This document shows positions 7,890-62,832 of a stretch of 64,000 bases of DNA, one piece after another (the stretch's first letter is position 1; each line of letters starts with the position of its first letter). The DNA is from Roseburia intestinalis L1-82 (GTDB lineage: Bacteria > Bacillota > Clostridia > Lachnospirales > Lachnospiraceae). Both the position numbers and the translations under genes were made by a program. A model generated the notes under the pieces. It ran no database searches, had not been told where the DNA came from, and saw nothing but the letters and a program-made list of their open reading frames with translations. Where the stretch lies: assembly GCF_900537995.1 (NCBI RefSeq), contig NZ_LR027880.1:267001-331000 (forward strand), read 5' to 3'.

Positions 7890-8045
7890 GAAGAAATTCT
7901 GACAGCAGGAGGAGACCAGCTATGAAAAGTCAACCATAAATTAGCAAAAAATTTCTTTTTCATATCGGTGGTAAAAAAGGGTAACTTTAATAGAGCTCCC
8001 TTAGGGTGCTTTTTCAAAATCTATCGATATTGGTATACAGACCTC

Positions 8046-9215
8046 TTATTCGAGGTTGAATTCTACTTCGCCAGTGAGCATCTTCCAGATGACTCTGACA
8101 AGCTTGCCGGCACAGTGCCCAAGTGCATTGTAGTGAGACCGGCCTTCAGCCCTCTTGGCATCATAATAAGCCTTGAAGGTTGCGTTGTTTCTGACAACGT
8201 TCCAAGCTGCATTTACAAGGGCATATCGTAAAACACGAGAGCCACGTTTGGACATCCTTGTTGTCTTAGCCTGAAAGTTACCAGACTGATAAACAGAAGG
8301 ATCCAAACCGGCAAAAGCAAGCAGCTTGTTAGGATTGGAGAAACGGTGAATATCACCTATTTCACCAAGAATCATTCCACCATTGATATAACCGATACCA
8401 GGAATGGTCATGATGACAGAATCGTTGAATTTCATGATATCCGTCATCTCAGCTTCAATCTTTTCTAATTGGCTATCCAGTAACTCGATTTGTTGAATGG
8501 TTTGAGTTATCTGAATAGATATAGCGCTGTCGTTAGCACCGACAGACTTCTGTGCGAGAACTCTTAATTCTTTGGCCTGTTCTTTGGTAAAGTGTCCGTG
8601 TGAGTTCACTTTGAGCAGATTTGCCAGATGAGTCATATGCATGGAAGCAATCTCTTTTGGAGAAGGTGTTTCTTTTAATAAAGCATAGACAGCGTGTTGA
8701 TGCAGACCGGATTTGAAAAAGTATTGAATCTCCGGAAAGACCTGATCAACATAGGTTGTCAGTTGAATTTTCAATCGGGTACGTTGCTTTATGGTTTTCT
8801 GACGGAAACGTCCCAATGCCTTAAGATCCATCATATCGAGATCGAAGAAGCTGACGAATCTGAGGTTGTCCTGCATCATAAGAGTTTTAGCAATCACGTA
8901 AGTGTCGACCTTATCTGTCTTAGTTTTGCGAACGTTATTTTTTCGCATTTGACAGGTTTTGATGGGGTTCAACACACACACTTGGTAAAGCTCAGTAACA
9001 AGGTATCGAACAAGGTTGTCACCGTAGTGTGCCGTTGACTCAAGACCGATGATGAGGCTGTTCTTATCGAATGATTCGAGTTTAGAGACCAGCAGTTGGA
9101 AGCCATCAGCGTCATTTGTGAATTTGAACGGCTCAATGATTATTTCACCGTCGGAAGAAATCGCAGCGGCGAAATGATTAAGTTTGGCAATATCAATGCC
9201 TACGTAAATTTTCAT
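8046..9215 (-). CDS. IS110-family DEDD transposase (copy 1)
   Basis: This 389-residue recombinase has the two IS110 domains. The N-terminal RuvC-like DEDD domain starts [12 protein letters not shown] and includes GLESTAHYG and [12 protein letters not shown]. The C-terminal Transposase_20 domain contains [26 protein letters not shown] and the serine-containing [14 protein letters not shown]. The start is ATG at 9215, preceded by GGGAGG; an upstream in-frame GTG has no ribosome site. The protein is identical to the other two copies. It works as the RNA-guided recombinase that excises the element as a circle and inserts it at a guide-matched site. Confidence 0.95.
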
Positions 9216-9484
9216 GAGGTTGTACCTCCCTTTCCTAAAGTCTGATACCATGATGTCCACCAACGATTATCATCGTAGACTTGATAGAAATAAGTACTCT
9301 GAGTGAAAAACACTCCGGCAACATCCAGCTAATAAACAATTCAGATAAATGTAGTGGCAATACACTCCAGTTGAGTAGTCAAGCTACAGAAAACAAATCA
9401 AAAGTCCATAGTATCTGAATTGTATTGAACCACGATATTAAAAGAAAGGAAATATGTGATAATTAACTTCCTAATTATCATACA
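9215..9484 (-). ncRNA. Candidate bridge RNA region (IS110 left end, copy 1)
   Basis: This is the non-coding left end, identical to copies 2 and 3 but on the minus strand. The 12-bp stem arms lie at 9412-9423 and 9336-9347. In this copy the region separates the GH20 start codon from its ribosome site. Details of the RNA argument are given under copy 2. Confidence 0.5.
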
Positions 9485-9492
9485 AGAAAATT

Positions 9493-19444: not shown

Positions 19445-19756
19445 GATTCTGGTATCAAAAGGTGGTTTTCAATTTTTGACTGTCAAGTTGCACAAAGTCG
19501 GATCTATTTTGTTCCGCTGTCCGAAAATAAGAAAAACTAAGTATGCCTGATTTAGATTTTCCAGGAGTGACGTGTACGTCTTAAACGTCCCGTCCATGGG
19601 ACGTTAAGACTTTTGCTGCCATCCATGGCAGCAAAACACTATGCATTAACAGGCATACTAAGATTTTCTAATTTTCTCCCAAAGTCACAAAACGAGTCCC
19701 AACTTTGTGCAATTTGACAATCGCTAAGTTGTGAGCCACCTTTTGACACCAGAATC
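19445..19756. repeat. MITE-like palindromic element in the thiT leader
   Basis: This 312-bp segment is bounded by 21-bp terminal inverted repeats (GATTCTGGTATCAAAAGGTGG, one mismatch to its partner). The inverted similarity continues inward for about 100 bp on each side (GTTGCACAAAGT, AGTATGCCTG and their complements). The centre (19565-19650) holds two further hairpins, one built on GTCTTAA/TTAAGAC with GGGACG and one on TTTTGCTGCC/GGCAGCAAAA. It has no coding capacity. Part of one arm recurs at 28496 and 34032, so it belongs to a dispersed family. Confidence 0.75.
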
Positions 19757-19846
19757 CTAATTCATGATAATAGAATGTTCGCGGAGCGTACATTTTATTG
19801 TCTACAAACACGGGGGATTGTTTCTTACCAGAATAAAGTAAAAGAA

Positions 19847-19953
19847 AACGCTTCCTTACGCCGGTATTATCCGGGTCAAGTAATAAGGGTCGATGAAATC
19901 ATCTCTCAGCACGTTGTCAATACCATATGGTATAAACAGCACCCCTAGCATTT
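19847..19953 (-). promoter_or_regulatory. TPP riboswitch (THI element)
   Basis: On the minus strand the conserved aptamer parts appear in order: GGGGTGCTG, then CTGAGAGATGATTTCATC, GACCC, ACTTGACCCGGATAATACCGG and CGTAAGGAAGCG. P1 is AATGCT/AGCGTT. An extra hairpin ATACC-ATAT-GGTAT extends P3. These match the thiamine pyrophosphate aptamer. It controls thiT, off when TPP is abundant. The downstream expression platform is not clear to me; a weak AATGT/ACATT stem lies at about 19776-19797. Confidence 0.9.
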
Positions 19954-19969
19954 GTATGGAACGTTTCCC

Positions 19970-23432: not shown

Positions 23433-23696
23433 TCCGCTTTCGAGCAGCGGGGTGAGAGGGTGGTTTGGATCAAATCCTCCGAAACCTTTTTGTTCTTTCA
23501 GATATTTGTACAGCGGATGCGTATTTTCTCCATTTACTTCAATTTTGGAAAAAAGTTTAAAGGTAATTCCAAATTTTGCGTCGCAGAAAGATGCGATCTC
23601 CTCGGTTGTTCCAAGTGCCTGGTTTCCAAACTGATTACATGGGAAATCAAGAATCTCAAATCCTGCATCCTCTGCTTCATAATCATAAAAATTCAT
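23316..23696 (-). pseudogene. Glutathione peroxidase lacking the catalytic Cys/Sec segment
   Basis: The 126-residue frame is clearly glutathione peroxidase: MNFYDYEAED at the N-terminus, then FEILDFPCNQFGNQALG, THPLYKYLKEQKG and IKWNFTKFLIDRDGNVVERF. Family members are about 160-180 residues and carry NxxxxC/U after residue 30. Here the protein jumps from EAEDA directly to GFEILDF, removing about 45 residues including the catalytic cysteine or selenocysteine. The C-terminus also stops at EPTTF, at the junction with the convergent nucleotidyltransferase remnant. Gln, Trp and Asn of the catalytic tetrad remain. It is almost certainly inactive. Confidence 0.75.
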
Positions 23697-23816
23697 AGTA
23701 AAAGTTTCCTTTCAAAATAAAAGATTTAAAACAATTAAATTGTGCACAATCAAATGCAAAATAAAAATACATAATTTTAATCCATATGTCAAGAAAAATT
23801 CATACAAAAAAGAGTA

Positions 23817-24647
23817 TTACTCAAAAAAGTAATACTCCCCATCTTCATCCGTAAACCTTTTCCAGCTTGTCTGAAACACATCCTCGATCACATGCGACTG
23901 CAGACACTCCTGGGGCGTGCTAACCATGGCGATGCTGCCGGGAAAATCAGTTGCTTTAACATCAGAGTCTGTACCGGCATGCGCTGCTTTATCAAGAGAT
24001 CTGGAACCGGCGCGGTTCATGACAACCAGCGTATCTGAGATGCGCACCGCCTGACTCAGATCATGTAAGATCAGAATAATCGTTTTTCCCTGTTTTTTTA
24101 ATTCCTTTATCATGGCGTAAAATTCGCGCTGCCCGGTCAGGTCGAGATAGGTGGTCGGCTCGTCCAACACGATGTAATCACAATCCTGCGCTAACACCAT
24201 GGCAAAAAACACGCGCTGTCTGATACCGCCGGAGAGCGTGTCGACATACTGGTCGGCATACTGGCTGATGTGGGTAAATTCCATGGCACGGTTTACAATT
24301 TCAGTGTCCTCCTTTGATTTCCGGCGGGAAAATCCAAGATAAGGAAAGCGCCCGTGTTCCACAAGCATTTTAACCGGAATAGCAGGAATGATCGTGCGGA
24401 CCTGTGGGAGCAGGGAAATTTCTCTTGCACGTTCTTTCGGGGAAATTTTAAGAAAATCCTGTCCGTTTAAGAATATCTGTCCGGCGGTCACCGTGGAAGC
24501 ACCGTTTAAGCACTGGACCAGGGTAGTCTTGCCGCAGCCGTTCGGGCCAAGGATCGTGGTGATCTCCCCGTCACGGAAAGTTAATGAGATGTCGTTTAAG
24601 ATCGGCGTGTGCTGACAGGAAACGGAAACATTGCGAAATTCAAGCAT
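23817..24647 (-). CDS. FecE/FhuC-type ABC transporter ATP-binding protein
   Basis: This 276-residue ATPase of metal-chelate importers has Walker A GPNGCGKTTLVQ, Q-loop region LLPQVR, signature LSGGIRQRVFFAMVLAQ, Walker B YIVLDEPTTYLDL and the switch His in ILHDLSQA. It overlaps the permease gene upstream by 8 nt, so the two are translationally coupled. It lacks an adjacent binding-protein gene; the FecB-type lipoprotein at 20.1 kb is the best candidate. This unit-1 copy has an intact frame, unlike the one in unit 2. Confidence 0.93.
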   Translation of the reverse strand: MLEFRNVSVSCQHTPILNDISLTFRDGEITTILGPNGCGKTTLVQCLNGASTVTAGQIFLNGQDFLKISPKERAREISLLPQVRTIIPAIPVKMLVEHGRFPYLGFSRRKSKEDTEIVNRAMEFTHISQYADQYVDTLSGGIRQRVFFAMVLAQDCDYIVLDEPTTYLDLTGQREFYAMIKELKKQGKTIILILHDLSQAVRISDTLVVMNRAGSRSLDKAAHAGTDSDVKATDFPGSIAMVSTPQECLQSHVIEDVFQTSWKRFTDEDGEYYFFE

Positions 24648-25638
24648 GGACTCTGCGCCCTCCTTTCTTTTTCAGTAACAGATACAGGAAAAACGGTCCG
24701 CCGACGAACGACATGATAATCCCGGCGGGCAGCTCAAACGGAGAGAAGAGTATTCGTCCGAGCAGGTCACATAACAGTACAAAACTGCCGCCCAAAAGTG
24801 CGGAGCACGGCAAAAGAAAACGTGCATCATTGCCAAAAAGCCGCCTGCAGATATGCGGGATGATCAGTCCGATAAAGCCGAGCAGACCGGCGAAACTGAC
24901 GACACATCCGGCAAGGATGCTTGCGAGGGACAGAAGCAAAAAGCGGGTGAGTGAAACGCGCAGTCCGAGGGAGCGCGCGATGTCATCCCCAAGCCCGAGC
25001 ATATTTAATGGCTGTGCGAGAAACAAGGAAACAAAGAATGCAATAGCAATACAGAGGCACGGCAGGATCAGCCTGCTTAGGGTAAGCCCGGAGAGGGAAC
25101 CGATCAGAAAAGACGTCAGATTCACCGTGATATCCGTATTTAAAAGTTTGATCGTATTGATGCCTGCACTTAAAAAACTTGAGACTGTAATTCCGGCAAG
25201 AATGATCGTAGTCCTTGAACTGTCTGAGAGCGCAGCCAGAAAAAAGATCAGCAGTGTGGTGATCAGGGCGCCGCAAAACGCAAAGACCGGAAGTGTAAAT
25301 GAGTTTGCCGGGAAAAAGATCATGGCGAGCATGACCGCAAAACCGGAGCCGGAATTGACACCGATCGTGCTTGGGCTTGCCAGCGAATTGTTCATTACGC
25401 CCTGTAAGATCACACCCGAACAGGACAGCCCGATCCCGGCAAAAAGTCCGCCGAGCAAGCGCGGAATGCGCACGGTAGTGATTAAAATATAAGAAGTAGA
25501 ACTGCGGTCTGCCCCGGTCAGACAATTTAAGATATCTTTGAATGCAATATTCACGCTTCCAAATAAAATGCCTGCGCAGACAGACACGAGAAGTAACATA
25601 CACATCAGAAGGATGGTAATGCTTTTGTGCTTTTTCAT
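24640..25638 (-). CDS. FecCD-type ABC transporter permease
   Basis: This 332-residue permease of the BtuC/FecCD family has about nine to ten hydrophobic helices. Family motifs include RIPRLLGGLFAGIGLSCSGV near residue 60, NPLASP-like NNSLASPSTIGVNSGSGF and the C-terminal GLIIPHICRRLFGNDARFLLP coupling region. It imports iron-siderophore, haem or cobalamin with the FecE-type ATPase. The start has AGGAAGG 7 nt upstream. The 170 bp between its start and the IS110 left end must contain its promoter; I saw no convincing consensus there. Confidence 0.93.
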   Translation of the reverse strand: MKKHKSITILLMCMLLLVSVCAGILFGSVNIAFKDILNCLTGADRSSTSYILITTVRIPRLLGGLFAGIGLSCSGVILQGVMNNSLASPSTIGVNSGSGFAVMLAMIFFPANSFTLPVFAFCGALITTLLIFFLAALSDSSRTTIILAGITVSSFLSAGINTIKLLNTDITVNLTSFLIGSLSGLTLSRLILPCLCIAIAFFVSLFLAQPLNMLGLGDDIARSLGLRVSLTRFLLLSLASILAGCVVSFAGLLGFIGLIIPHICRRLFGNDARFLLPCSALLGGSFVLLCDLLGRILFSPFELPAGIIMSFVGGPFFLYLLLKKKGGRRVHA

Positions 25639-25810
25639 AGGGGATTCCTTCCTGCAAAAGTCTTTTGTATTGGTTAAAAAATGATGGAAAATTTGCTCAT
25701 TATGGTATCACAGACAGGGGAAATGCGCAATGGGGTGGTTTTCATTTAACAACAACGGAGCAGATAATAAAAAAGAAATTTAAAACCTGCTAATAAATTT
25801 CATAGTTACT

Positions 25811-26079
25811 TGTATGATAATTAGGAAGTTAATTATCACATATTTCCTTTCTTTTAATATCGTGGTTCAATACAATTCAGATACTATGGACTTTTGATTT
25901 GTTTTCTGTAGCTTGACTACTCAACTGGAGTGTATTGCCACTACATTTATCTGAATTGTTTATTAGCTGGATGTTGCCGGAGTGTTTTTCACTCAGAGTA
26001 CTTATTTCTATCAAGTCTACGATGATAATCGTTGGTGGACATCATGGTATCAGACTTTAGGAAAGGGAGGTACAACCTC
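25811..26079 (+). ncRNA. Candidate bridge RNA region (IS110 left end, copy 2)
   Basis: This 269-nt non-coding left end precedes the recombinase and is unchanged in all three copies. It can fold: ACAATTCAGATA (25872-25883) pairs perfectly with TATCTGAATTGT (25948-25959), enclosing a loop; GAGTG-TTTTT-CACTC and ACGAT-GATA-ATCGT follow. IS110 elements are known to encode a bridge RNA here. TAGCTGG at 25964-25970 equals the element's right end (27373-27379), as a donor guide would. TTTTCT (25902-25907) and GGAG (25927-25930) match the left and right sides of the copy 1 target around CT. Confidence 0.55.
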
Positions 26080-27249
26080 ATGAAAATTTACGTAGGCATT
26101 GATATTGCCAAACTTAATCATTTCGCCGCTGCGATTTCTTCCGACGGTGAAATAATCATTGAGCCGTTCAAATTCACAAATGACGCTGATGGCTTCCAAC
26201 TGCTGGTCTCTAAACTCGAATCATTCGATAAGAACAGCCTCATCATCGGTCTTGAGTCAACGGCACACTACGGTGACAACCTTGTTCGATACCTTGTTAC
26301 TGAGCTTTACCAAGTGTGTGTGTTGAACCCCATCAAAACCTGTCAAATGCGAAAAAATAACGTTCGCAAAACTAAGACAGATAAGGTCGACACTTACGTG
26401 ATTGCTAAAACTCTTATGATGCAGGACAACCTCAGATTCGTCAGCTTCTTCGATCTCGATATGATGGATCTTAAGGCATTGGGACGTTTCCGTCAGAAAA
26501 CCATAAAGCAACGTACCCGATTGAAAATTCAACTGACAACCTATGTTGATCAGGTCTTTCCGGAGATTCAATACTTTTTCAAATCCGGTCTGCATCAACA
26601 CGCTGTCTATGCTTTATTAAAAGAAACACCTTCTCCAAAAGAGATTGCTTCCATGCATATGACTCATCTGGCAAATCTGCTCAAAGTGAACTCACACGGA
26701 CACTTTACCAAAGAACAGGCCAAAGAATTAAGAGTTCTCGCACAGAAGTCTGTCGGTGCTAACGACAGCGCTATATCTATTCAGATAACTCAAACCATTC
26801 AACAAATCGAGTTACTGGATAGCCAATTAGAAAAGATTGAAGCTGAGATGACGGATATCATGAAATTCAACGATTCTGTCATCATGACCATTCCTGGTAT
26901 CGGTTATATCAATGGTGGAATGATTCTTGGTGAAATAGGTGATATTCACCGTTTCTCCAATCCTAACAAGCTGCTTGCTTTTGCCGGTTTGGATCCTTCT
27001 GTTTATCAGTCTGGTAACTTTCAGGCTAAGACAACAAGGATGTCCAAACGTGGCTCTCGTGTTTTACGATATGCCCTTGTAAATGCAGCTTGGAACGTTG
27101 TCAGAAACAACGCAACCTTCAAGGCTTATTATGATGCCAAGAGGGCTGAAGGCCGGTCTCACTACAATGCACTTGGGCACTGTGCCGGCAAGCTTGTCAG
27201 AGTCATCTGGAAGATGCTCACTGGCGAAGTAGAATTCAACCTCGAATAA
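26080..27249 (+). CDS. IS110-family DEDD transposase (copy 2)
   Basis: The protein is identical to copy 1: 389 residues, RuvC-like DEDD domain then Transposase_20 domain with the catalytic-serine region. ATG at 26080 has GGGAGG 11 nt upstream. It is followed by a 132-nt right end that carries an outward TTGACT hexamer at 27362. Confidence 0.95.
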
Positions 27250-27381
27250 GAGGTCTGTATACCAATATCGATAGATTTTGAAAAAGCACCCTAAGGGAGC
27301 TCTATTAAAGTTACCCTTTTTTACCACCGATATGAAAAAGAAATTTTTTGCTAATTTATGGTTGACTTTTCATAGCTGGTC

Positions 27382-27410
27382 TTCAAAAAAGATTACTTTC
27401 AGGTTATAAT
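27382..27410 (+). promoter_or_regulatory. Promoter of the hxlR/nifX-like unit at the IS110 junction
   Basis: TTCAAA (27382-27387), 17 nt and TATAAT (27405-27410). The first T of the -35 is the T of the CT insertion core, so the promoter survived the IS110 insertion. Downstream, GTGTGAAAA/TTTTCACAC (about 27465-27488) forms a hairpin that may be an operator. The same arrangement occurs in unit 2 at about 32920-32948. Confidence 0.55.
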
Positions 27411-27539
27411 ATATGTAATTGGCTCAGAGATTTTGAGCAGTTACCAAAAACCTGAAGGTGATTAGTGTGAAAAATAACATTTTCACACGCAAGATTTGTG
27501 CTTACGCATAAACTTGATATGCGAAAAATGGTGTTTTTT

Positions 27540-27916
27540 ATGGCAAAATATAGAAAAAAATTAGAGGCTGATATCCGTTGTCCGCTTGAATACGGTCTTT
27601 GGTGGCAAATGGAAATCGCGTATTATATGCGTGCTTTCCGCCAGCAAAAAAACTGCGTTACAGCGAGATACGGAAAGAAATGTATAACATCACAGACGCA
27701 GTTTTAGCAGCAACGTTAAAAGATCTCATAGCCGATGGTATTGTCGACCGGAAATCATATGATGAGATACCGCCGAGAGTTGAGTATTCACTTACAGGAA
27801 AAGGAAATTCGGTTGTTCCGATATTGCAGAGTATCTGCCGGTGGTCAGATATTTTCTATAAGGAAGATGTGGAAAATGAGATGAAACAGTGCCAGAAATG
27901 TGACTATCACAGATAG
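27540..27916 (+). pseudogene. HxlR-family regulator, frameshifted (unit 1)
   Basis: The ATG frame gives MAKYRKKLEADIRCPLEYGL, the usual HxlR start, then leaves the family frame at a small deletion where GGKW should follow. The rest of the winged helix (LRYSEIRKEMYNITDAVLAATLKDL, DGIVDRKSYDEIPPRVEYSLT) is read in another frame to 27916. A seven-A run (CAGCAAAAAAACTG), one base longer than in unit 2, shifts it a second time. HxlR regulators sense redox or electrophile stress. It is non-functional as read unless the indels are sequencing errors. Confidence 0.75.
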
Positions 27917-27979
27917 GATTGTGATATGTAACTATAATAACAAGCAGTAAAACAGAAATCATAAAGGAGACAGGATAAA

Positions 27980-28387
27980 ATGAGAATAGCAGTGACATAC
28001 GAAAACGGACAGATTTTTCAGCATTTCGGACACACAGAGCAGTTTAAAGTGTACGATCTTGAGGACAACAAAATTGTTAACACACAGGTTGTGGACACAA
28101 ACGGACAGGGACATGGTGCACTTGCAGGATTTCTTAATTCAGCAGATATAGATGTTCTGATCTGTGGTGGCATCGGTGGAGGAGCACAGGCTGCACTTGC
28201 TGCTGCGGGAATAAAACTGTTCGGTGGAGTATCAGGTGATGCAGACGAAGCTGTAAAAGCATATCTTGAAGGCAATCTGACATACAATCCGGATGTTCAC
28301 TGTACACACCACGATCATGAGGATGGTCATTCATGCGGAGAGCATCATTGTGGCGAGGATAAGCATGGCTGTGCGGGAAATCACTAA
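27980..28387 (+). CDS. NifX/NifB-type dinitrogenase cofactor domain protein with His/Cys tail (unit 1)
   Basis: This 135-residue protein has a Nitro_FeMo-Co fold (MRIAVTYENGQIFQHFGHTEQF, ICGGIGGGAQAALAAAGI, GDADEAVKAYLEG), then a metal-binding tail of about 30 residues with HCTHHDHEDGHSCGEHHCG. Such stand-alone proteins are common in anaerobes without nitrogenase and probably carry metal or Fe-S clusters. The start has AAAGGAG 10 nt upstream. It follows the broken hxlR in the same transcript and is 100% identical to the copy in unit 2. Confidence 0.88.
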   Translation: MRIAVTYENGQIFQHFGHTEQFKVYDLEDNKIVNTQVVDTNGQGHGALAGFLNSADIDVLICGGIGGGAQAALAAAGIKLFGGVSGDADEAVKAYLEGNLTYNPDVHCTHHDHEDGHSCGEHHCGEDKHGCAGNH

Positions 28388-28403
28388 CAAACATTGGCGG
28401 TAA

Positions 28404-28498
28404 GCCATTATAGATGAACAGCTTCTGAAACTTCGTACACTTGGACTTACAGAGGAGAAGAAGCAGAGAAAGTTATTATTCAGAATTTTTTAAATTAA
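28404..28498 (+). pseudogene. SufB/SufD-like C-terminal remnant (unit 1)
   Basis: In unit 2 the same sequence reads AIIDEQLLKLRTLGLTEEEA and ends with a Phe-Leu-Asn, resembling the last 30 residues of SufD/SufB Fe-S assembly proteins (usual motif LxxRGLxxxEA). Here two extra bases in GAGGAGAAGAAGC break that frame. No upstream part of the gene is present. Confidence 0.45.
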
Positions 28499-28564
28499 CA
28501 GGCATACTAAGATTTTCTGATTTTCTCCCAAAGTCACAAAAAAAGTCCGATCTTTGTGCAATTT
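28496..28564 (+). repeat. Partial arm of the MITE-like repeat (unit 1)
   Basis: TAACAGGCATACTAAGATTT through TTTGTGCAATTT matches 19655-19723 with a few differences. Only one arm is present, so it is a truncated member of the element found in the thiT leader. Confidence 0.75.
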
Positions 28565-28950
28565 TTCAAGGTACTATCAATGATAGAACGATAAAAAACT
28601 TTATTCGCCCCAGCATCATCTTATCTATAAAAAAATCTGTTCTACCTGTTAGATATGAATCTGGCAAACTTGAATTGAGATTTTATCTATTCCAAGGGAT
28701 TTAATAACTATTATATTTTGTTATCAAATATCTCTCAAACCTTGAAAACACTAAGTTTATCGCATGTTAGCTTTCCCTTAGCCTTTCCCTATGTTATATC
28801 TTCCCATATGAATTTACGAACTCTGATAAGGGTAAATACAAGGGCAAGAAAATTATATACACAAAATAAATGTGACATGGTGAACTGATTGAAATGCTTC
28901 TGATTTTTGTAACGAATAATTGATTCAACGATAAGAAGAGATAAGTTACG
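28565..28950. other. AT-rich non-coding stretch (unit 1; equivalent in unit 2 at 34101-34489)
   Basis: I see no convincing gene, promoter pair or structured RNA here. The few open frames are short, start without ribosome sites and are broken by single-base differences between the two units. Confidence 0.6.
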
Positions 28951-29187
28951 ATGAGAACAATATTTGCAGAATACAATCCACAACGCAACAGCATTGATGT
29001 GTATACCAGTGCTGGCTATATGCTCCGTATTGACTGTTGGGAAGCTGAGAAGGATTTATAAACCACACCCGGATCAGTCTGTTCATTAAACGCACTTGCC
29101 ATTGATGAACCACTTGAATATGTAAAATTATATCTTGATGGAACGATGCAAATATGGGTGGATGCAGAGGACACTCTTTATTTATAA
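28951..29187 (+). pseudogene. DUF6061-like small protein with in-frame TAA (unit 1)
   Basis: The frame reads MRTIFAEYNPQRNSIDVYTS, then GYMLRIDCWEAEKDL, a TAA at 29059-29061, then TTPGSVCSLNALAIDEPLEY and DGTMQIWVDAEDTLYL. Both halves are in the same frame and together make a 78-codon protein of the kind (DUF6061) often found on Lachnospiraceae mobile elements. The same TAA occurs in unit 2, so it predates the duplication and is not a read error. Confidence 0.6.
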
Positions 29188-29357
29188 TGTAAAAATCTCA
29201 AATCCTGCATCCTCTGCTTCATAATCATAAAATTCATAGTAAAAGTTTCCTTTCAAAATAAAAGATTTAAAACAATTAAATTGTGCACAATCAAATGCAA
29301 AATAAAAATACATAATTTTAATCCATATGTCAAGAAAAATTCATACAAAAAAGAGTA

Positions 29358-30185
29358 TTACTCAAAAAAGTAATACTCCCATCTTCATCCGTAAACCTTT
29401 TCCAGCTTGTCTGAAACACATCCTCGATCACATGCGACTGCAGACACTCCTGGGGCGTGCTAACCATGGCGATGCTGCCGGGAAAATCAGTTGCTTTAAC
29501 ATCAGAGTCTGTACCGGCATGCGCTGCTTTATCAAGAGATCTGGAACCGGCGCGGTTCATGACAACCAGCGTATCTGAGATGCGCACCGCCTGACTCAGA
29601 TCATGTAAGATCAGAATAATCGTTTTTCCCTGTTTTTTAATTCCTTTATCATGGCGTAAAATTCGCGCTGCCCGGTCAGGTCGAGATAGGTGGTCGGCTC
29701 GTCCAACACGATGTAATCACAATCCTGCGCTAACACCATGGCAAAAAACACGCGCTGTCTGATACCGCCGGAGAGCGTGTCGACATACTGGTCGCATACT
29801 GGCTGATGTGGGTAAATTCCATGGCACGGTTTACAATTTCAGTGTCCTCCTTTGATTTCCGGCGGGAAAATCCAAGATAAGGAAAGCGCCCGTGTTCCAC
29901 AAGCATTTTAACCGGAATAGCAGGAATGATCGTGCGGACCTGTGGGAGCAGGGAAATTTCTCTTGCACGTTCTTTCGGGGAAATTTTAAGAAAATCCTGT
30001 CCGTTTAAGAATATCTGTCCGGCGGTCACCGTGGAAGCACCGTTTAAGCACTGGACCAGGGTAGTCTTGCCGCAGCCGTTCGGGCCAAGGATCGTGGTGA
30101 TCTCCCCGTCACGGAAAGTTAATGAGATGTCGTTTAAGATCGGCGTGTGCTGACAGGAAACGGAAACATTGCGAAATTCAAGCAT
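29358..30185 (-). pseudogene. FecE-type ATPase, frameshifted copy (unit 2)
   Basis: It is identical to the unit 1 gene up to FTHISQYA, where a missing G (GTCGCATAC instead of GTCGGCATAC) shifts the frame just before the LSGGIRQ signature. Two more single-base losses follow (a T in a poly-T run and a C in CCCC near the end). The 151-residue product would lack the signature and Walker B. Either a decaying duplicate or unpolished sequence. Confidence 0.8.
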
Positions 30186-31175
30186 GGACTCTGCGCCCTC
30201 CTTTCTTTTTCAGTAACAGATACAGGAAAAACGGTCCGCCGACGAACGACATGATAATCCCGGCGGGCAGCTCAAACGGAGAGAAGAGTATTCGTCCGAG
30301 CAGGTCACATAACAGTACAAAACTGCCGCCCAAAAGTGCGGAGCACGGCAAAAGAAAACGTGCATCATTGCCAAAAAGCCGCCTGCAGATATGCGGGATG
30401 ATCAGTCCGATAAAGCCGAGCAGACCGGCGAAACTGACGACACATCCGGCAAGGATGCTTGCGAGGGACAGAAGCAAAAAGCGGGTGAGTGAAACGCGCA
30501 GTCCGAGGGAGCGCGCGATGTCATCCCCAAGCCCGAGCATATTTAATGGCTGTGCGAGAACAAGGAAACAAAGAATGCAATAGCAATACAGAGGCACGGC
30601 AGGATCAGCCTGCTTAGGGTAAGCCCGGAGAGGGAACCGATCAGAAAAGACGTCAGATTCACCGTGATATCCGTATTTAAAAGTTTGATCGTATTGATGC
30701 CTGCACTTAAAAAACTTGAGACTGTAATTCCGGCAAGAATGATCGTAGTCCTTGAACTGTCTGAGAGCGCAGCCAGAAAAAAGATCAGCAGTGTGGTGAT
30801 CAGGGCGCCGCAAAACGCAAAGACCGGAAGTGTAAATGAGTTTGCCGGGAAAAAGATCATGGCGAGCATGACCGCAAAACCGGAGCCGGAATTGACACCG
30901 ATCGTGCTTGGGCTTGCCAGCGAATTGTTCATTACGCCCTGTAAGATCACACCCGAACAGGACAGCCCGATCCCGGCAAAAAGTCCGCCGAGCAAGCGCG
31001 GAATGCGCACGGTAGTGATTAAAATATAAGAAGTAGAACTGCGGTCTGCCCCGGTCAGACAATTTAAGATATCTTTGAATGCAATATTCACGCTTCCAAA
31101 TAAAATGCCTGCGCAGACAGACACGAGAAGTAACATACACATCAGAAGGATGGTAATGCTTTTGTGCTTTTTCAT
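30178..31175 (-). pseudogene. FecCD-type permease, frameshifted copy (unit 2)
   Basis: The first 207 residues match the unit 1 permease; a missing A (GCGAGAACAAGG instead of GCGAGAAACAAGG, about 30560) then shifts the frame. The remaining third is intact in another frame. As read, the product loses the C-terminal helices and the coupling region. Confidence 0.8.
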
Positions 31176-31348
31176 AGGGGATTCCTTCCTGCAAAAGTCT
31201 TTTGTATTGGTTAAAAAATGATGGAAAATTTGCTCATTATGGTATCACAGACAGGGGAAATGCGCAATGGGGTGGTTTTCATTTAACAACAACGGGAGCA
31301 GATAATAAAAAAGAAATTTAAAACCTGCTAATAAATTTCATAGTTACT

Positions 31349-31617
31349 TGTATGATAATTAGGAAGTTAATTATCACATATTTCCTTTCTTTTAATATCG
31401 TGGTTCAATACAATTCAGATACTATGGACTTTTGATTTGTTTTCTGTAGCTTGACTACTCAACTGGAGTGTATTGCCACTACATTTATCTGAATTGTTTA
31501 TTAGCTGGATGTTGCCGGAGTGTTTTTCACTCAGAGTACTTATTTCTATCAAGTCTACGATGATAATCGTTGGTGGACATCATGGTATCAGACTTTAGGA
31601 AAGGGAGGTACAACCTC
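31349..31617 (+). ncRNA. Candidate bridge RNA region (IS110 left end, copy 3)
   Basis: The non-coding left end is identical to copy 2; stem arms are at 31410-31421 and 31486-31497. Confidence 0.5.
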
Positions 31618-32787
31618 ATGAAAATTTACGTAGGCATTGATATTGCCAAACTTAATCATTTCGCCGCTGCGATTTCTTCCGACGGTGAAATAATCATTGA
31701 GCCGTTCAAATTCACAAATGACGCTGATGGCTTCCAACTGCTGGTCTCTAAACTCGAATCATTCGATAAGAACAGCCTCATCATCGGTCTTGAGTCAACG
31801 GCACACTACGGTGACAACCTTGTTCGATACCTTGTTACTGAGCTTTACCAAGTGTGTGTGTTGAACCCCATCAAAACCTGTCAAATGCGAAAAAATAACG
31901 TTCGCAAAACTAAGACAGATAAGGTCGACACTTACGTGATTGCTAAAACTCTTATGATGCAGGACAACCTCAGATTCGTCAGCTTCTTCGATCTCGATAT
32001 GATGGATCTTAAGGCATTGGGACGTTTCCGTCAGAAAACCATAAAGCAACGTACCCGATTGAAAATTCAACTGACAACCTATGTTGATCAGGTCTTTCCG
32101 GAGATTCAATACTTTTTCAAATCCGGTCTGCATCAACACGCTGTCTATGCTTTATTAAAAGAAACACCTTCTCCAAAAGAGATTGCTTCCATGCATATGA
32201 CTCATCTGGCAAATCTGCTCAAAGTGAACTCACACGGACACTTTACCAAAGAACAGGCCAAAGAATTAAGAGTTCTCGCACAGAAGTCTGTCGGTGCTAA
32301 CGACAGCGCTATATCTATTCAGATAACTCAAACCATTCAACAAATCGAGTTACTGGATAGCCAATTAGAAAAGATTGAAGCTGAGATGACGGATATCATG
32401 AAATTCAACGATTCTGTCATCATGACCATTCCTGGTATCGGTTATATCAATGGTGGAATGATTCTTGGTGAAATAGGTGATATTCACCGTTTCTCCAATC
32501 CTAACAAGCTGCTTGCTTTTGCCGGTTTGGATCCTTCTGTTTATCAGTCTGGTAACTTTCAGGCTAAGACAACAAGGATGTCCAAACGTGGCTCTCGTGT
32601 TTTACGATATGCCCTTGTAAATGCAGCTTGGAACGTTGTCAGAAACAACGCAACCTTCAAGGCTTATTATGATGCCAAGAGGGCTGAAGGCCGGTCTCAC
32701 TACAATGCACTTGGGCACTGTGCCGGCAAGCTTGTCAGAGTCATCTGGAAGATGCTCACTGGCGAAGTAGAATTCAACCTCGAATAA
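31618..32787 (+). CDS. IS110-family DEDD transposase (copy 3)
   Basis: The 389-residue protein is identical to the other two copies, starting at ATG 31618 after GGGAGG. Its frame has no indels relative to copies 1 and 2, which contrasts with the flanking unit 2 genes. Confidence 0.95.
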
Positions 32788-33078
32788 GAGGTCTGTATAC
32801 CAATATCGATAGATTTTGAAAAAGCACCCTAAGGGAGCTCTATTAAAGTTACCCTTTTTTACCACCGATATGAAAAAGAAATTTTTTGCTAATTTATGGT
32901 TGACTTTTCATAGCTGGTCTTCAAAAAAGATTACTTTCAGGTTATAATATATGTAATTGGCTCAGAGATTTTGAGCAGTTACCAAAAACCTGAAGGTGAT
33001 TAGTGTGAAAAATAACATTTTTCACACGCAAGATTTGTGCTTACGCATAAACTTGATATGCGAAAAATGGTGTTTTTT

Positions 33079-33454
33079 ATGGCAAAATATAGAAAAAAAT
33101 TAGAGGCTGATATCCGTTGTCCGCTTGAATACGGTCTTTGGTGGCAAATGGAAATCGCGTATTATATGCGTGCTTTCCGCCAGCAAAAAACTGCGTTACA
33201 GCGAGATACGGAAAGAAATGTATAACATCACAGACGCAGTTTTAGCAGCAACGTTAAAAGATCTCATAGCCGATGGTATTGTCGACCGGAAATCATATGA
33301 TGAGATACCGCCGAGAGTTGAGTATTCACTTACAGGAAAAGGAAATTCGGTTGTTCCGATATTGCAGAGTATCTGCCGGTGGTCAGATATTTTCTATAAG
33401 GAAGATGTGGAAAATGAGATGAAACAGTGCCAGAAATGTGACTATCACAGATAG
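33079..33454 (+). pseudogene. HxlR-family regulator, frameshifted (unit 2)
   Basis: Here the C-terminal part is one frame from GGKWKSRIICVLSASKKLRY to the end at 33454, the standard HxlR winged helix. The N-terminal MAKYRKKLEADIRCPLEYGL is in a different frame because of the small deletion shared with unit 1 at GGTCTTTGGTGGC. A TTG at 33125 could start a shortened protein (109 residues), but it has no clear ribosome site. Confidence 0.7.
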
Positions 33455-33517
33455 GATTGTGATATGTAACTATAATAACAAGCAGTAAAACAGAAATCAT
33501 AAAGGAGACAGGATAAA

Positions 33518-33925
33518 ATGAGAATAGCAGTGACATACGAAAACGGACAGATTTTTCAGCATTTCGGACACACAGAGCAGTTTAAAGTGTACGATCTTGA
33601 GGACAACAAAATTGTTAACACACAGGTTGTGGACACAAACGGACAGGGACATGGTGCACTTGCAGGATTTCTTAATTCAGCAGATATAGATGTTCTGATC
33701 TGTGGTGGCATCGGTGGAGGAGCACAGGCTGCACTTGCTGCTGCGGGAATAAAACTGTTCGGTGGAGTATCAGGTGATGCAGACGAAGCTGTAAAAGCAT
33801 ATCTTGAAGGCAATCTGACATACAATCCGGATGTTCACTGTACACACCACGATCATGAGGATGGTCATTCATGCGGAGAGCATCATTGTGGCGAGGATAA
33901 GCATGGCTGTGCGGGAAATCACTAA
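33518..33925 (+). CDS. NifX/NifB-type cofactor domain protein with His/Cys tail (unit 2)
   Basis: The 135-residue protein is identical to the unit 1 copy, with the same AAAGGAG ribosome site. It is one of the few genes intact in both units. Confidence 0.88.
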   Translation: MRIAVTYENGQIFQHFGHTEQFKVYDLEDNKIVNTQVVDTNGQGHGALAGFLNSADIDVLICGGIGGGAQAALAAAGIKLFGGVSGDADEAVKAYLEGNLTYNPDVHCTHHDHEDGHSCGEHHCGEDKHGCAGNH

Positions 33926-33941
33926 CAAACATTGGCGGTAA

Positions 33942-34034
33942 GCCATTATAGATGAACAGCTTCTGAAACTTCGTACACTTGGACTTACAGAGGAAGAAGC
34001 AGAGAAAGTTATTATTCAGAATTTTTTAAATTAA
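33942..34034 (+). pseudogene. SufB/SufD-like C-terminal remnant (unit 2)
   Basis: It reads AIIDEQLLKLRTLGLTEEEA then EKVIIQNFLN and a stop. There is an upstream in-frame TAA and no start codon. The stop codon is the first codon of the adjacent repeat arm, so the repeat truncated it or lies exactly at the old gene end. Confidence 0.45.
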
Positions 34035-34100
34035 CAGGCATACTAAGATTTTCTGATTTTCTCCCAAAGTCACAAAAAAAGTCCGATCTTTGTGCAATTT
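34032..34100 (+). repeat. Partial arm of the MITE-like repeat (unit 2)
   Basis: Same 69-bp arm as in unit 1, matching 19655-19723. Confidence 0.75.
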
Positions 34101-34489
34101 TTCAAGGTACTATCAATGATAGAACGATAAAAAACTTTATTCGCCCCAGCATCATCTTATCTATAAAAAAATCTGTTCTACCTGTTAGATATGAATCTGG
34201 CAAACTTGAATTGAGATTTTATCTATTCCAAGGGATTTAATAACTATTATATTTTGTTATCAAATATCTCTCAAACCCTTGAAAACACTAAGTTTATCGC
34301 ATGTTAGCTTTCCCTTAGCCTTTCCCTTATGTTATATCTTCCCATATGAATTTACGAACTCTGATAAGGGTAAATACAAGGGCAAGAAAATTATATAACA
34401 CAAAATAAATGTGACATGGTGAACTGATTGAAATGCTTCTGATTTTTGTAACGAATAATTGATTCAACGATAAGAAGAGATAAGTTACG

Positions 34490-34726
34490 ATGAGAACAAT
34501 ATTTGCAGAATACAATCCACAACGCAACAGCATTGATGTGTATACCAGTGCTGGCTATATGCTCCGTATTGACTGTTGGGAAGCTGAGAAGGATTTATAA
34601 ACCACACCCGGATCAGTCTGTTCATTAAACGCACTTGCCATTGATGAACCACTTGAATATGTAAAATTATATCTTGATGGAACGATGCAAATATGGGTGG
34701 ATGCAGAGGACACTCTTTATTTATAA
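34490..34726 (+). pseudogene. DUF6061-like small protein with in-frame TAA (unit 2)
   Basis: Same 78-codon frame and the same internal TAA as in unit 1. In this copy it is followed immediately by a strong terminator, the natural 3' end of the transcript, which unit 1 lacks because the duplication ends just before it. Confidence 0.6.
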
Positions 34727-34731
34727 TGTTA

Positions 34732-34773
34732 AATAATCCCCAAAAATTCTAAAATTTTTCGGGGATTATTTTT
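34732..34773. terminator. Strong terminator at the end of duplication unit 2
   Basis: AATAATCCCC and GGGGATTATT pair perfectly, extended inward by AAAAATT/AATTTTT, and a T-run follows. Confidence 0.85.
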
Positions 34774-55754: not shown

Positions 55755-55973
55755 ATGCTATGTGAAAAATGTAAAACAAATATGATTCATGTTTGTGAGA
55801 ATTCAGTACAAGGATGGTCATGTCCGGTTTGTGGGTGGGGAACATTAACAACATATATTGATAAAATACATCAAGATATGACAGAATATAGTATATGTAC
55901 AAAAAGTATTACGAATATTGATAAAGATAAAATCAAGGTAATTTCCAAAATAGCAGGAGTTAATTATATGTAA
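55755..55973 (+). CDS. Small zinc-ribbon protein, likely immunity to the VgrG toxin tip
   Basis: 72 residues with LCEKCKTNMIHVCE and WSCPVCGWGT, two CxxC pairs making a zinc ribbon, then a charged tail. The ATG is 1 nt after the toxin stop, with the ribosome site GGAGGA in the toxin's final Gly-Gly codons, the same design as at 52081. The last codon lies at the left end of the IS66 insertion, so the original C-terminus may be altered. Confidence 0.65.
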   Translation: MLCEKCKTNMIHVCENSVQGWSCPVCGWGTLTTYIDKIHQDMTEYSICTKSITNIDKDKIKVISKIAGVNYM

Positions 55974-56054
55974 GTACGTAATCATTCGTATCTGTCAGCA
56001 ACTATATTTTTCTGATACACTCTTTTCATAACAAAGAAAGGAAACTGTATCATT

Positions 56055-56393
56055 ATGAAAACAGATGAAAAAATCACGCTGTGGTCTGAACGAATCCATG
56101 AATTTCAATTCAGTGGGCAGACTTGCAAAACATGGTGTCAGGAACATCACGTTCCAGTCTCTACAATGAATTATTGGATGCGCAAGCTGAAAAAATTGGA
56201 CGAACAATCAGATACAGATATGATTTTTGCAAAAATGCCAACGGAAAAAGAGATTTCAAAGAATGAGACTTTGAATATCAGCCCGTCTCCAGTCCGCATT
56301 TTTATCACAAACGCTATTCGGATTGAAGTGATGCCTGAATGCCCGCCGGAATTTTTTCGTGTTCTGATCCAGGGGCTGAAAGATCATGCTTGA
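56055..56393 (+). CDS. IS66 TnpA-like accessory protein
   Basis: 112 residues with an N-terminal helix-turn-helix (WSERIHEFQFSGQTCKTWCQ, then VPVSTMNYWMRKLKK). This is the IS66 first reading frame, needed for transposition. It overlaps tnpB by 8 nt. The protein is identical to the inverted copy at 62409-62747. Confidence 0.88.
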   Translation: MKTDEKITLWSERIHEFQFSGQTCKTWCQEHHVPVSTMNYWMRKLKKLDEQSDTDMIFAKMPTEKEISKNETLNISPSPVRIFITNAIRIEVMPECPPEFFRVLIQGLKDHA

Positions 56394-56739
56394 TCTGGCA
56401 GGTGGCACAACCGTTTACCTTGCCTGTGGAGCTACCGATCTGAGAAAAAGCTATCACGGACTGGCTGCAATTATCAAGCTAAAATTCAAACTTGATCCCT
56501 ATTCGCGCTGCATGTTTGCGTTCTGCAACCGCAGGCGGACTTCTATTAAGATTCTGCAATGGGACGGATCCGGTTTCTGGATTCTGATGAAGAGGCTTGA
56601 CAAAGATTCCTTTCACTGGCCGGATACTCCGGATGAATTACAGAAAGTGACCCTGAAAGAGATGCATTGGCTGTGTGATGGTCTTTCACTTACTCCGAAG
56701 GGAGCTTTTGAAGAAAGACATCCAAAGATTGTTGTATAA
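56386..56739 (+). CDS. IS66 TnpB (Orf2)
   Basis: 117 residues with the IS66 Orf2 signature: LACGATDLRKSYHGLAAII, MFAFCNRRRTSIKILQWDGS and GFWILMKRL. Complete. The protein is identical to the inverted copy at 62063-62416. Confidence 0.93.
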   Translation: MLDLAGGTTVYLACGATDLRKSYHGLAAIIKLKFKLDPYSRCMFAFCNRRRTSIKILQWDGSGFWILMKRLDKDSFHWPDTPDELQKVTLKEMHWLCDGLSLTPKGAFEERHPKIVV

Positions 56740-57268
56740 AGAACGGATTTGTCAATTCGCAAAAAGCACGAAATACTCGTGGATATCGGTATATATTCCT
56801 ACACAGTAAAACGTTGATTTTTCTCGAACAGCTGGACTTTCTATGCTATACTGGAATTATCATATAAGAGTTTGGAGATTGCCGGATGGATCCGTTTTTT
56901 ACAGAGGAACAGCTGAATAACATGAGCCGTGAAAACATGATGGAAGTTATGCGAATCATGCAGAATCAGGTTCAAAAAAAAGAGACCGAGGTACAGCTTC
57001 TGAAAGACAAGCAGAAAGAACTGGAATTTATGAACGCAATGCTTTCAGACCGTCTTGCGCTTGCACAAAGAAGACGTTTCGGTTCTTCCAGTGAAAAATA
57101 CGCAGATGGATATGAACAGATGGATCTGTTTAATGAGGCTGAAGTCAATGCAGATATGGATACTGCTGAGATTGATGCAGTTTACGACGCCCAGCGGTCT
57201 CCATTCTGTTTTAGAACGGCCGTTTTCCGAAGCCAACGGCCGCCCATTTTTAGTTAAAAGATCACCAC

Positions 57269-61489: not shown

Positions 61490-61916
61490 GTTCCACAGTC
61501 CGGACAATAGCGGTCTTCGCCGGTCAGTTTATATTCGATTGTTTCTGTTACTTCGAAATTAGAGAGATCTTCTTCTTTTTTGCCGGTGCGTTTTTTCCGT
61601 TTGTGCGATGGAATCACGATTTCCTCTTCAATCTCAGCAGTATCCATATCTGCATTGACTTCAGCCTCATTAAACAGATCCATCTGTTCATATCCATCTG
61701 CGTATTTTTCACTGGAAGAACCGAAACGTCTTCTTTGTGCAAGCGCAAGACGGTCTGAAAGCATTGCGTTCATAAATTCCAGTTCTTTCTGCTTGTCTTT
61801 CAGAAGCTGTACCTCGGTCTCTTTTTTTGAACCTGATTCTGCATGATTCGCATAACTTCCATCATGTTTTCACGGCTCATGTTATTCAGCTGTTCCTCTG
61901 TAAAAAACGGATCCAT
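61490..61916 (-). pseudogene. IS66 TnpC N-terminal part, frameshifted
   Basis: It starts MDPFFTEEQLNNMSRENMME. An A-run of seven instead of eight (after NQVQ) shifts the frame; the later part, from ELEFMNAMLSDRL to YCPDCGT, is intact in the second frame and has the uninterrupted AEIEEEIVIPSHK that marks the IS21 insertion point of the other copy. Confidence 0.85.
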
Positions 61917-62062
61917 CCGGCAATCTCCAAACTCTTATATGATAATTCCAGTATAGCATAGAAAGTCCAGCTGTTCGAGAAAAATCAACGTTTTACTGTG
62001 TAGGAATATATACCGATATCCACGAGTATTTCGTGCTTTTTGCGAATTGACAAATCCGTTCT

Positions 62063-62416
62063 TTATACAACAATCTTTGGATGTCTTTCTTCAAAAGCTC
62101 CCTTCGGAGTAAGTGAAAGACCATCACACAGCCAATGCATCTCTTTCAGGGTCACTTTCTGTAATTCATCCGGAGTATCCGGCCAGTGAAAGGAATCTTT
62201 GTCAAGCCTCTTCATCAGAATCCAGAAACCGGATCCGTCCCATTGCAGAATCTTAATAGAAGTCCGCCTGCGGTTGCAGAACGCAAACATGCAGCGCGAA
62301 TAGGGATCAAGTTTGAATTTTAGCTTGATAATTGCAGCCAGTCCGTGATAGCTTTTTCTCAGATCGGTAGCTCCACAGGCAAGGTAAACGGTTGTGCCAC
62401 CTGCCAGATCAAGCAT
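62063..62416 (-). CDS. IS66 TnpB (Orf2), inverted copy
   Basis: 117 residues, identical to the protein at 56386-56739. Intact, but it lies in a rearranged IS66 without an intact tnpC on the same strand. Confidence 0.9.
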   Translation of the reverse strand: MLDLAGGTTVYLACGATDLRKSYHGLAAIIKLKFKLDPYSRCMFAFCNRRRTSIKILQWDGSGFWILMKRLDKDSFHWPDTPDELQKVTLKEMHWLCDGLSLTPKGAFEERHPKIVV

Positions 62417-62747
62417 GATCTTTCAGCCCCTGGATCAGAACACGAAAAAATTCCGGCGGGCATTCAGGCATCACTTCAATCCGAATAGCGTTTGTGATAA
62501 AAATGCGGACTGGAGACGGGCTGATATTCAAAGTCTCATTCTTTGAAATCTCTTTTTCCGTTGGCATTTTTGCAAAAATCATATCTGTATCTGATTGTTC
62601 GTCCAATTTTTTCAGCTTGCGCATCCAATAATTCATTGTAGAGACTGGAACGTGATGTTCCTGACACCATGTTTTGCAAGTCTGCCCACTGAATTGAAAT
62701 TCATGGATTCGTTCAGACCACAGCGTGATTTTTTCATCTGTTTTCAT
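62409..62747 (-). CDS. IS66 TnpA-like accessory protein, inverted copy
   Basis: 112 residues, identical to the protein at 56055-56393, overlapping tnpB by 8 nt. Confidence 0.86.
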   Translation of the reverse strand: MKTDEKITLWSERIHEFQFSGQTCKTWCQEHHVPVSTMNYWMRKLKKLDEQSDTDMIFAKMPTEKEISKNETLNISPSPVRIFITNAIRIEVMPECPPEFFRVLIQGLKDHA

Positions 62748-62832
62748 AATGATACAGTTTCCTTTCTTTGTTATGAAAAGAGTGTATCAGAAAAATATAG
62801 TTGCTGACAGATACGAATGATTACGTACTTAC

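Follow-up and report, generated by a model that had tools for sequence, protein, structure and literature searches.

Two properties of IS110-family elements that bear on the locus described here are already known: the use of bridge RNAs and, for IS900, the targeting of translation start signals. In the accessible parts of the papers on IS621, an IS110-group element of Escherichia coli, a short repeat flanks the donors and no notable covariation signal is reported inside targets (PMC11208160, PMC11208158). The available text of PMC8141618 gives the target motif of IS900, an IS110-family element of Mycobacterium avium subsp. paratuberculosis, as CATGNNNNNNTCTCCTT, and the visible part of its reference list includes Doran 1997, whose title has IS900 targeting translation initiation signals. 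As far as the text of the open-licence PubMed Central literature is accessible, we found no paper in it linking bridge-RNA guides with Shine-Dalgarno sequences; the words 'Shine' and 'ribosome' are absent from the available text of PMC11208160 and 'Shine' from that of PMC11187229, and in the accessible portion of PMC7823733 the Shine-Dalgarno text concerns something other than IS900.

The element examined here lies in Roseburia intestinalis L1-82, in a window of 64,000 nucleotides (the whole stretch of DNA that was analysed, to which coordinates refer unless a genome position is named). In common with IS621, as described in the accessible text of PMC11208160 and PMC11208158, it has a recombinase with DEDD and Tnp domains, a CT core and, by prediction, a junction promoter and a left-end RNA in which a target loop precedes a donor loop and the right target guide is 4 nt long; 18 nt separate the two target guides in IS621, and 19 nt here. 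In common with ISEc21 and its seekRNA, to the extent covered by the available text of PMC11187229, it has an upstream non-coding region predicted to yield a target-finding RNA, a predicted junction promoter, and a bottom-strand match located 5' of the top-strand match, but the target of ISEc21 is, unlike that of the present element, the inside of the transposase gene of certain IS3-family elements. From sequence comparison we consider it highly probable that the locus is an IS110-group bridge-RNA element with a promoter formed in the circle, a guide directed to Shine-Dalgarno sequences and a further determinant for CAT.

The element, its copies and its recombinase

The element, its copies in the window and its gene are as follows.

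25809..27382, plus strand: complete IS110-family element, 1574 bp including CT at both ends; same ends in 16 genome copies
25809..25810, plus strand: left CT core; CT at each end in 16/16 full copies
27381..27382, plus strand: right CT core; CT at each end in 16/16 full copies
26080..27249, plus strand: recombinase gene, DEDD RuvC-like domain and Tnp domain (PF01548, PF02371, NF033542; IS621 alignment)
31347..32920, plus strand: second copy, within a tandem duplication; same insertion event as 25809..27382
7913..9486, minus strand: third copy in the window, at an independent site

The genome (4.49 Mb, one contig) carries 17 copies and one 80-bp fragment. Both ends are present in 16 of the 17, running from CT to CT, and the limits of the element are thereby fixed at 25809-27382; these are the ends given in the original prediction, all of whose letters and coordinates are exact. 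Since the 16 two-ended copies comprise only eight distinct sequences, two of which are represented by five copies each, the element has moved recently. Its ends have the layout of the IS110 group, a long non-coding left end (271 nt) and a shorter right end (133 nt), and the flanks of the 16 copies reveal no target duplication beyond the core.

Two of the window copies lie in a tandem duplication (23649-29197 / 29191-34738; 5.56 kb, 99.7% identical), one per unit, and represent a single insertion event because their flanks are common to both. At genome positions 859052-860591 a copy is without its first 34 bases, and the 80-bp fragment, derived from a left end, begins at the same base 2.6 kb away (863216-863295); the two are perhaps one rearranged copy. 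The window also contains an inverted repeat pair of 1.2 kb (55970-57175 / 61628-62832, 99.9% identical); exact repeats measuring 1.17 kb and 274 bp adjoin it, and the group may be another cluster of mobile elements. The minus strand of the window carries a TwoAYGGAY RNA (19516-19683) and a TPP riboswitch (19836-19956).

The recombinase matches the Pfam families DEDD_Tnp_IS110 and Transposase_20 and NCBIfam NF033542, and the solved sequences nearest to it are IS621 and ISCro4; residues D8, E59, D101, D104 and S311 align with D11, E60, D102, D105 and S241 of IS621. Strong protein matches occur in 14 of the 299 genomes in a family-level draw, source genome counted.

The predicted junction promoter and bridge RNA

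For comparison, relatives came from 80 loci in named records and 12 in viral contigs. Identity is at least 49% in 73 relatives, and thresholds taken from this element's own ends find both ends in 61 of these; the 12 dropped include L139 and L142, which were also named by hand, and a further four of the 61 were excluded from target counts for short left flanks, leaving 57. An outgroup clade shows 38-46% identity, with 7 of its 25 loci lacking both ends. Loci seen in a first look were left out of all counts, with the exception of outgroup loci L053-L056, L060, L062 and L064. The candidate signals recognised in the ends are these.

27362..27367, plus strand: junction promoter -35, TTGACT; TTGAC correctly placed in 63/64 clade relatives and 19/25 outgroup loci, right end located without using TTGAC
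25813..25818, plus strand: junction promoter -10, TATGAT; 57/61 relatives, partly through selection, as left ends were found via a pattern containing the -10
25815..25838, no strand: inverted repeat over the junction -10, TGATAATTA (25815-25823) and TAATTATCA (25830-25838); own-arm pairing exceeds swapped pairing in relatives
25866..25871, plus strand: tentative candidate internal -10, TTCAAT, preceded by TGG (TGG-TTCAAT, 25863-25871)
25844..26045, plus strand: predicted bridge RNA region, the extent of a covariance-model match; by construction, as this left end is among the 49 used to build the model
25872..25959, plus strand: predicted target-binding loop, closed by the 12-bp stem 25872-25883/25948-25959 (sequence; arm-swap test)
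25899..25907, plus strand: left target guide, core-proximal TTTTCT at 25902-25907 (target consensus and covariation)
25908..25920, plus strand: apical hairpin GTAG...CTAC between the two target guides; closing pair GC in 39/49 and AU in 10/49 sequences
25927..25930, plus strand: right target guide GGAG, predicted to pair with CT-CC of the target; GGAG in 53/54 relatives having a target
25964..25970, plus strand: left donor guide TAGCTGG (C/T agreement with the right end)
26012..26015, plus strand: right donor guide CAAG, predicted to pair with left-end CTTG; assignment follows IS621 by analogy

The original prediction was that circularisation would bring together a promoter, and the two hexamers do stand 17 nt apart through a single CT, letter for letter. 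TTGAC is in place even where the search for the right end did not rely on it, so the junction -35 is more than chance, and sequence conservation falls directly upstream of it. In 55 of the 61 relatives both hexamers match the consensus at five or more of six positions at a distance of 17 nt, the -10 half of this count being partly by selection; a corresponding outgroup count of 18/18 was by construction, the end-finding pattern having demanded both hexamers, and was set aside and recounted independently. Sequence and conservation together place a predicted promoter across the circle junction. The inverted repeat over its -10 may be an operator or a recombinase site.

In 52 of 62 left ends a further -10-like sequence (TTCAAT, TTTAAT, TATAAT or TACAAT) immediately precedes the 12-bp stem; in relatives TATAAT is mostly without TG, and TTCAAT or TTTAAT mostly with it. 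This conserved sequence tentatively leaves room for a second promoter, as a lead only. An internal promoter would make sense in that chromosomal excision requires guide RNA before any circle exists, but a start 6-7 nt downstream would cut into the 12-bp stem.

The left end had also been claimed to be structured. Its perfect 12-bp stem is exact in every letter, with support mainly from an arm-swap test: across 59 left ends (three excluded), own arms pair at -8.15 kcal/mol against -6.60 for swapped arms, and none of 20,000 permutations, which ignore relatedness, did as well. Otherwise the signs of structure are weaker than first implied: folding of the single sequence is unexceptional (z of -0.37 for 196 nt and -1.35 for 255 nt), and RNAalifold returns just 10 pairs from 49 sequences, two of them with changes on both sides. 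No Rfam family reached threshold in a search of the left end. A covariance model of the 10 pairs, mostly sequence, matches all three window copies and 22 of the 23 outgroup loci given to it, at 26-70 bits.

TAGCTGG at 25964-25970 recurs in the right end at 27373-27379, and TTTTCT and GGAG stand at 25902-25907 and 25927-25930, exactly where guides had been proposed. The left donor guide AGYTGG is identical to the right-end AGYTGG in all 60 elements parsed out of 62 (39 with C, 21 with T), an agreement counted per element rather than per independent change; the two left unparsed are L135, which is truncated, and L107, in which inspection by eye shows no such match. In the right donor guide, CAA is invariant and G present in at least 90% of 49 sequences, a constancy that precludes a covariation test.

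Guides and targets at translation start signals

Once a second copy from the same event (L010, with L009), a truncated copy (L025) and a fragment (L026) are dropped, the R. intestinalis genome offers 15 independent insertion sites. Their consensus is TTTTCATnnTTTT-CT-CC, in which the core CT counts by construction (CT stands at both ends of each copy); the core is followed by C in 14 of 15 and then C in 13 of 15, and each of the four positions before it is T in 9-11 of 15. This fits TTTTCT as left target guide (TTTT-CT) and GGAG as right (CT-CC), the roles first proposed on the strength of one poor site. On the opposite strand the consensus reads GGAG-N6-ATG-AAA: the target is a Shine-Dalgarno/start-codon pair, which the original prediction missed. 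Reading that strand, 12 of the 15 sites precede a frame of at least 110 codons whose ATG lies 3-8 nt after the core; two others have an ATG with frames of 7 and 4 codons, and one has no ATG. Invaded frames resemble EngB, an FtsX-like permease and a 2-hydroxyacyl-CoA dehydratase activator (names by eye). The copy at 25809 is itself among the poorest matches, with target GTTA-CT-TC and the following host start.

25801..25803, minus strand: host ATG (CAT on the plus strand), 5 nt before the core, frame only 7 codons; site of copy 25809..27382

The same habit is seen in relatives from Lachnospiraceae, other Clostridia, Selenomonadaceae and Bacilli (taxa as given in the sequence records). All 57 target sequences are distinct, in all 57 the core is followed by an ATG at a distance of 3-12 nt, and at 50 a frame of at least 50 codons follows (49 from ATG, one from TTG in frame with ATG). 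CC occupies target positions +1 and +2 at 12/15 own and 50/57 relative sites. The ATG is at 5-7 nt in 54 of 57 relative and 13 of 15 own sites, 67 of 72 in total (GGAG-N5..7-ATG on the other strand), and the first ATG is at this distance in 66 of 71 insertions; an open frame of 50 codons or more follows 62 of the 72 sites. Two engB homologues, among 12 loci given to an empty-site pattern, retain GGAG-N7-ATG and GGAG-N6-ATG. In the sequences compared, the pattern is that of IS900: CAT, a spacer and a CTCC target, at gene starts and in a single orientation.

A guide alone does not seem to explain insertion at gene starts, given that just 7-11% of background GGAG sites qualify. In 400 kb of the same genome an ATG at 3-8 nt with a frame follows 178 of 2573 GGAG sites (6.9%), 6 of 60 GGAGAAAA sites and 78 of 813 sites scoring at least 8 on the non-CAT target matrix; in the relatives' flanks, 139 of 1221 GGAG sites (11.4%) have an ATG at 3-12 nt with a frame. 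The natural distance from GGAG to ATG is broad, being 5-7 nt in 55/159 cases in this genome (crude gene calls) and 49/139 in the relatives' flanks, and differs from that of insertions (Fisher, 9e-18 and 5e-17 respectively). The Shine-Dalgarno region of the recombinase gene itself (GGGAGGTACAACCTCATG, 26065-26082) has its ATG 10 nt after GGAG. This exceeds the distance used by insertions, and its length might protect the gene against self-insertion.

Do the guides vary with the targets? In 54 relatives the left target guide agrees with target positions -1 to -5 at 150 of 270 comparisons, against 122.2 +/- 6.2 after shuffling, with none of 5000 shuffles as good. Slides of the guide by +1, +2 and -2 gave no signal in these 54, but at a slide of -1 the guides agree just as well (141 against 109.6); the register is therefore not unique within the clade, and pairing here is weak (56% at the five positions). 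L094, L102 and L135 were unparsed for target guides, though L102 shows GGAG by eye. The right target guide is nearly constant in this clade and its covariation was tested in the outgroup instead; L113, the sole parsed element with GAAG for GGAG, has the target CT-TT. A right guide one base longer, in which the base before GGAG would match target +3, gained no support (32/53 against 30 expected, p 0.26).

For the outgroup test, two loci were unparsed (L150, L175) and three excluded (L169, L170 and L171: one duplicated site, short right flanks), leaving 13 sites. Of 104 comparisons at the left-guide positions, 83 are matches, against 57.8 +/- 5.2 shuffled and in register only; the right target guide gives 54 matches against 37, some of these sites having the same guide. 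As in the relatives, shuffling ignores relatedness, and several outgroup elements have one guide in common. The longest match run next to the core is 10 on the left (in L171) and, counting the core, 9 on the right (in L173). The targets of homologues covary with the proposed guides, for the left guide in relatives and for both target guides in the outgroup. In these comparisons the guides match both target and donor, as expected of a bridge RNA, and an IS110 bridge RNA with guides at the positions first proposed is the best reading of the target consensus and of target and donor covariation.

Many outgroup guides are the complement of AAGGAGGAA or similar, again a Shine-Dalgarno sequence with the core placed differently, and the first ATG is at 9-13 nt in 9 of 17 sites and at 5-7 nt in just one of 17. 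Longer guide matches, mostly to the complement of an AAGGAGG-like sequence, occur in L056, L147-L149, L152 and L170-L173. In L155 neither the guide nor its matching target is a Shine-Dalgarno sequence.

What may read the start codon

The donor end carries the same triplet as the targets.

27367..27373, plus strand: TTTTCAT in the donor end, its CAT lying 7 nt before the core; CAT in 64/64 relatives, right end located without CAT

In outgroup donors CAT is replaced by AAT (21/25) or TAT (4/25), counted without the demanded letter. The guide arm has KAU rather than CAU where the start codon would be read. Natural spacing is much broader than that of insertions and the guides lack CAT at that place, which suggests that the start codon is read by a determinant other than the guide. 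The simplest account would be a single recognition of CAT serving donor and target, by the protein, which we infer as the reader, although a contact fixed in the protein does not sit easily with a CAT range of 5-7 bp.

The element would then excise as a circle, whose joined ends would form a promoter transcribing the left-end bridge RNA. The target-binding loop would read the Shine-Dalgarno region, the right guide being GGAG and the left guide U-rich, and the further determinant would recognise the start codon through its reverse complement, CAT, at 5-7 bp from the core. Insertion would fall inside the Shine-Dalgarno sequences of many genes, with the recombinase gene directed away from the invaded one. 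A tentative working account, which we place a little short of an even prospect, is that targeting by IS110 recombinases of this clade is relaxed and in two parts: the bridge RNA would match the Shine-Dalgarno sequence over a short stretch, and the start codon would be read not by the guide but, at slightly flexible distance, by whatever reads the donor CAT. If true, an RNA-programmed element for one site becomes an element for almost any gene start, and a determinant outside the guide bears on the specificity of bridge-RNA tools.

It is rather doubtful that the guide itself reads the start codon, with the conserved KAU of the left arm (CUUUUKAU-N6-CU) pairing with AU of AUG and with an A-rich second codon. 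The arm does have start-region geometry, KAU is common in it, and two Eubacterium infirmum targets match it over eight core-adjacent bases, AT included. However, arm spacing and target spacing are unlinked (19 of 52 equal against 20.5 expected; r = 0.16, p 0.13), and as no C occurs at that position in 59 parsed arms, the third codon base is not complementary to the arm.

We think it unlikely that the bridge RNA guides to any GGAG-like site and that selection alone leaves survivors at gene starts. Insertions within genes are surely removed by selection, and selection probably contributes here: a 50-codon frame follows 62 of 72 insertions but only 91 of the 188 GGAG-N5-7-ATG motifs in the 400-kb sample. 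Selection alone would, however, retain the broad natural spacing, whereas insertions sit at 5-7 nt, and among intergenic GGAG sites the 287 that are not Shine-Dalgarno sequences, more numerous than the 159 that are (crude gene calls), go nearly unused.

A very improbable explanation is that start signals are targeted so that host signals translate a minus-strand gene of the element, along the lines of the IS900 title. After insertion a conserved minus-strand ATG of the right end (ATG AAA AGT CAA, 27362-27373) does follow the host GGAG at a distance of 7 nt, but the frame this ATG opens has 4-5 codons in 50 of 61 relatives and at most 22 in the rest, one being without ATG; an IS900-like minus-strand hed gene, sought in the 61 relatives, was not found. 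It is scarcely credible that the left end is a mere leader or operator region of the recombinase gene with no guide RNA: unremarkable folding energy and the inverted repeat over the junction -10 would suit this, but guides covary with target and donor at the positions expected of a bridge RNA, most strongly in the outgroup.

Comparison with known systems

Unlike IS621, the present element has a target in the Shine-Dalgarno/start region, CAT in both donor and target, and weak left pairing. The likeness to IS900, judged from its target motif in the available text of PMC8141618, lies in CAT, a spacer, CT and CC; according to the same portion of that source, the spacer of IS900 is 8 as against 5-7 here, IS900 comes from another phylum, and it carries a minus-strand hed gene where this element is without one. 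To what was known, the sequence comparisons appear to add the joining of both halves, the spread in Bacillota, a second register in the outgroup and a start codon apparently read outside the guide. Two-part targeting would, if true, be a layer of target choice absent from the accessible text of the bridge-RNA papers (PMC11208160, PMC11208158, PMC11187229). For the old observation of an IS110-family element at translation start signals we thus offer an explanation in terms of a guide RNA, together with a related clade in which most guides read Shine-Dalgarno sequences in a different register.
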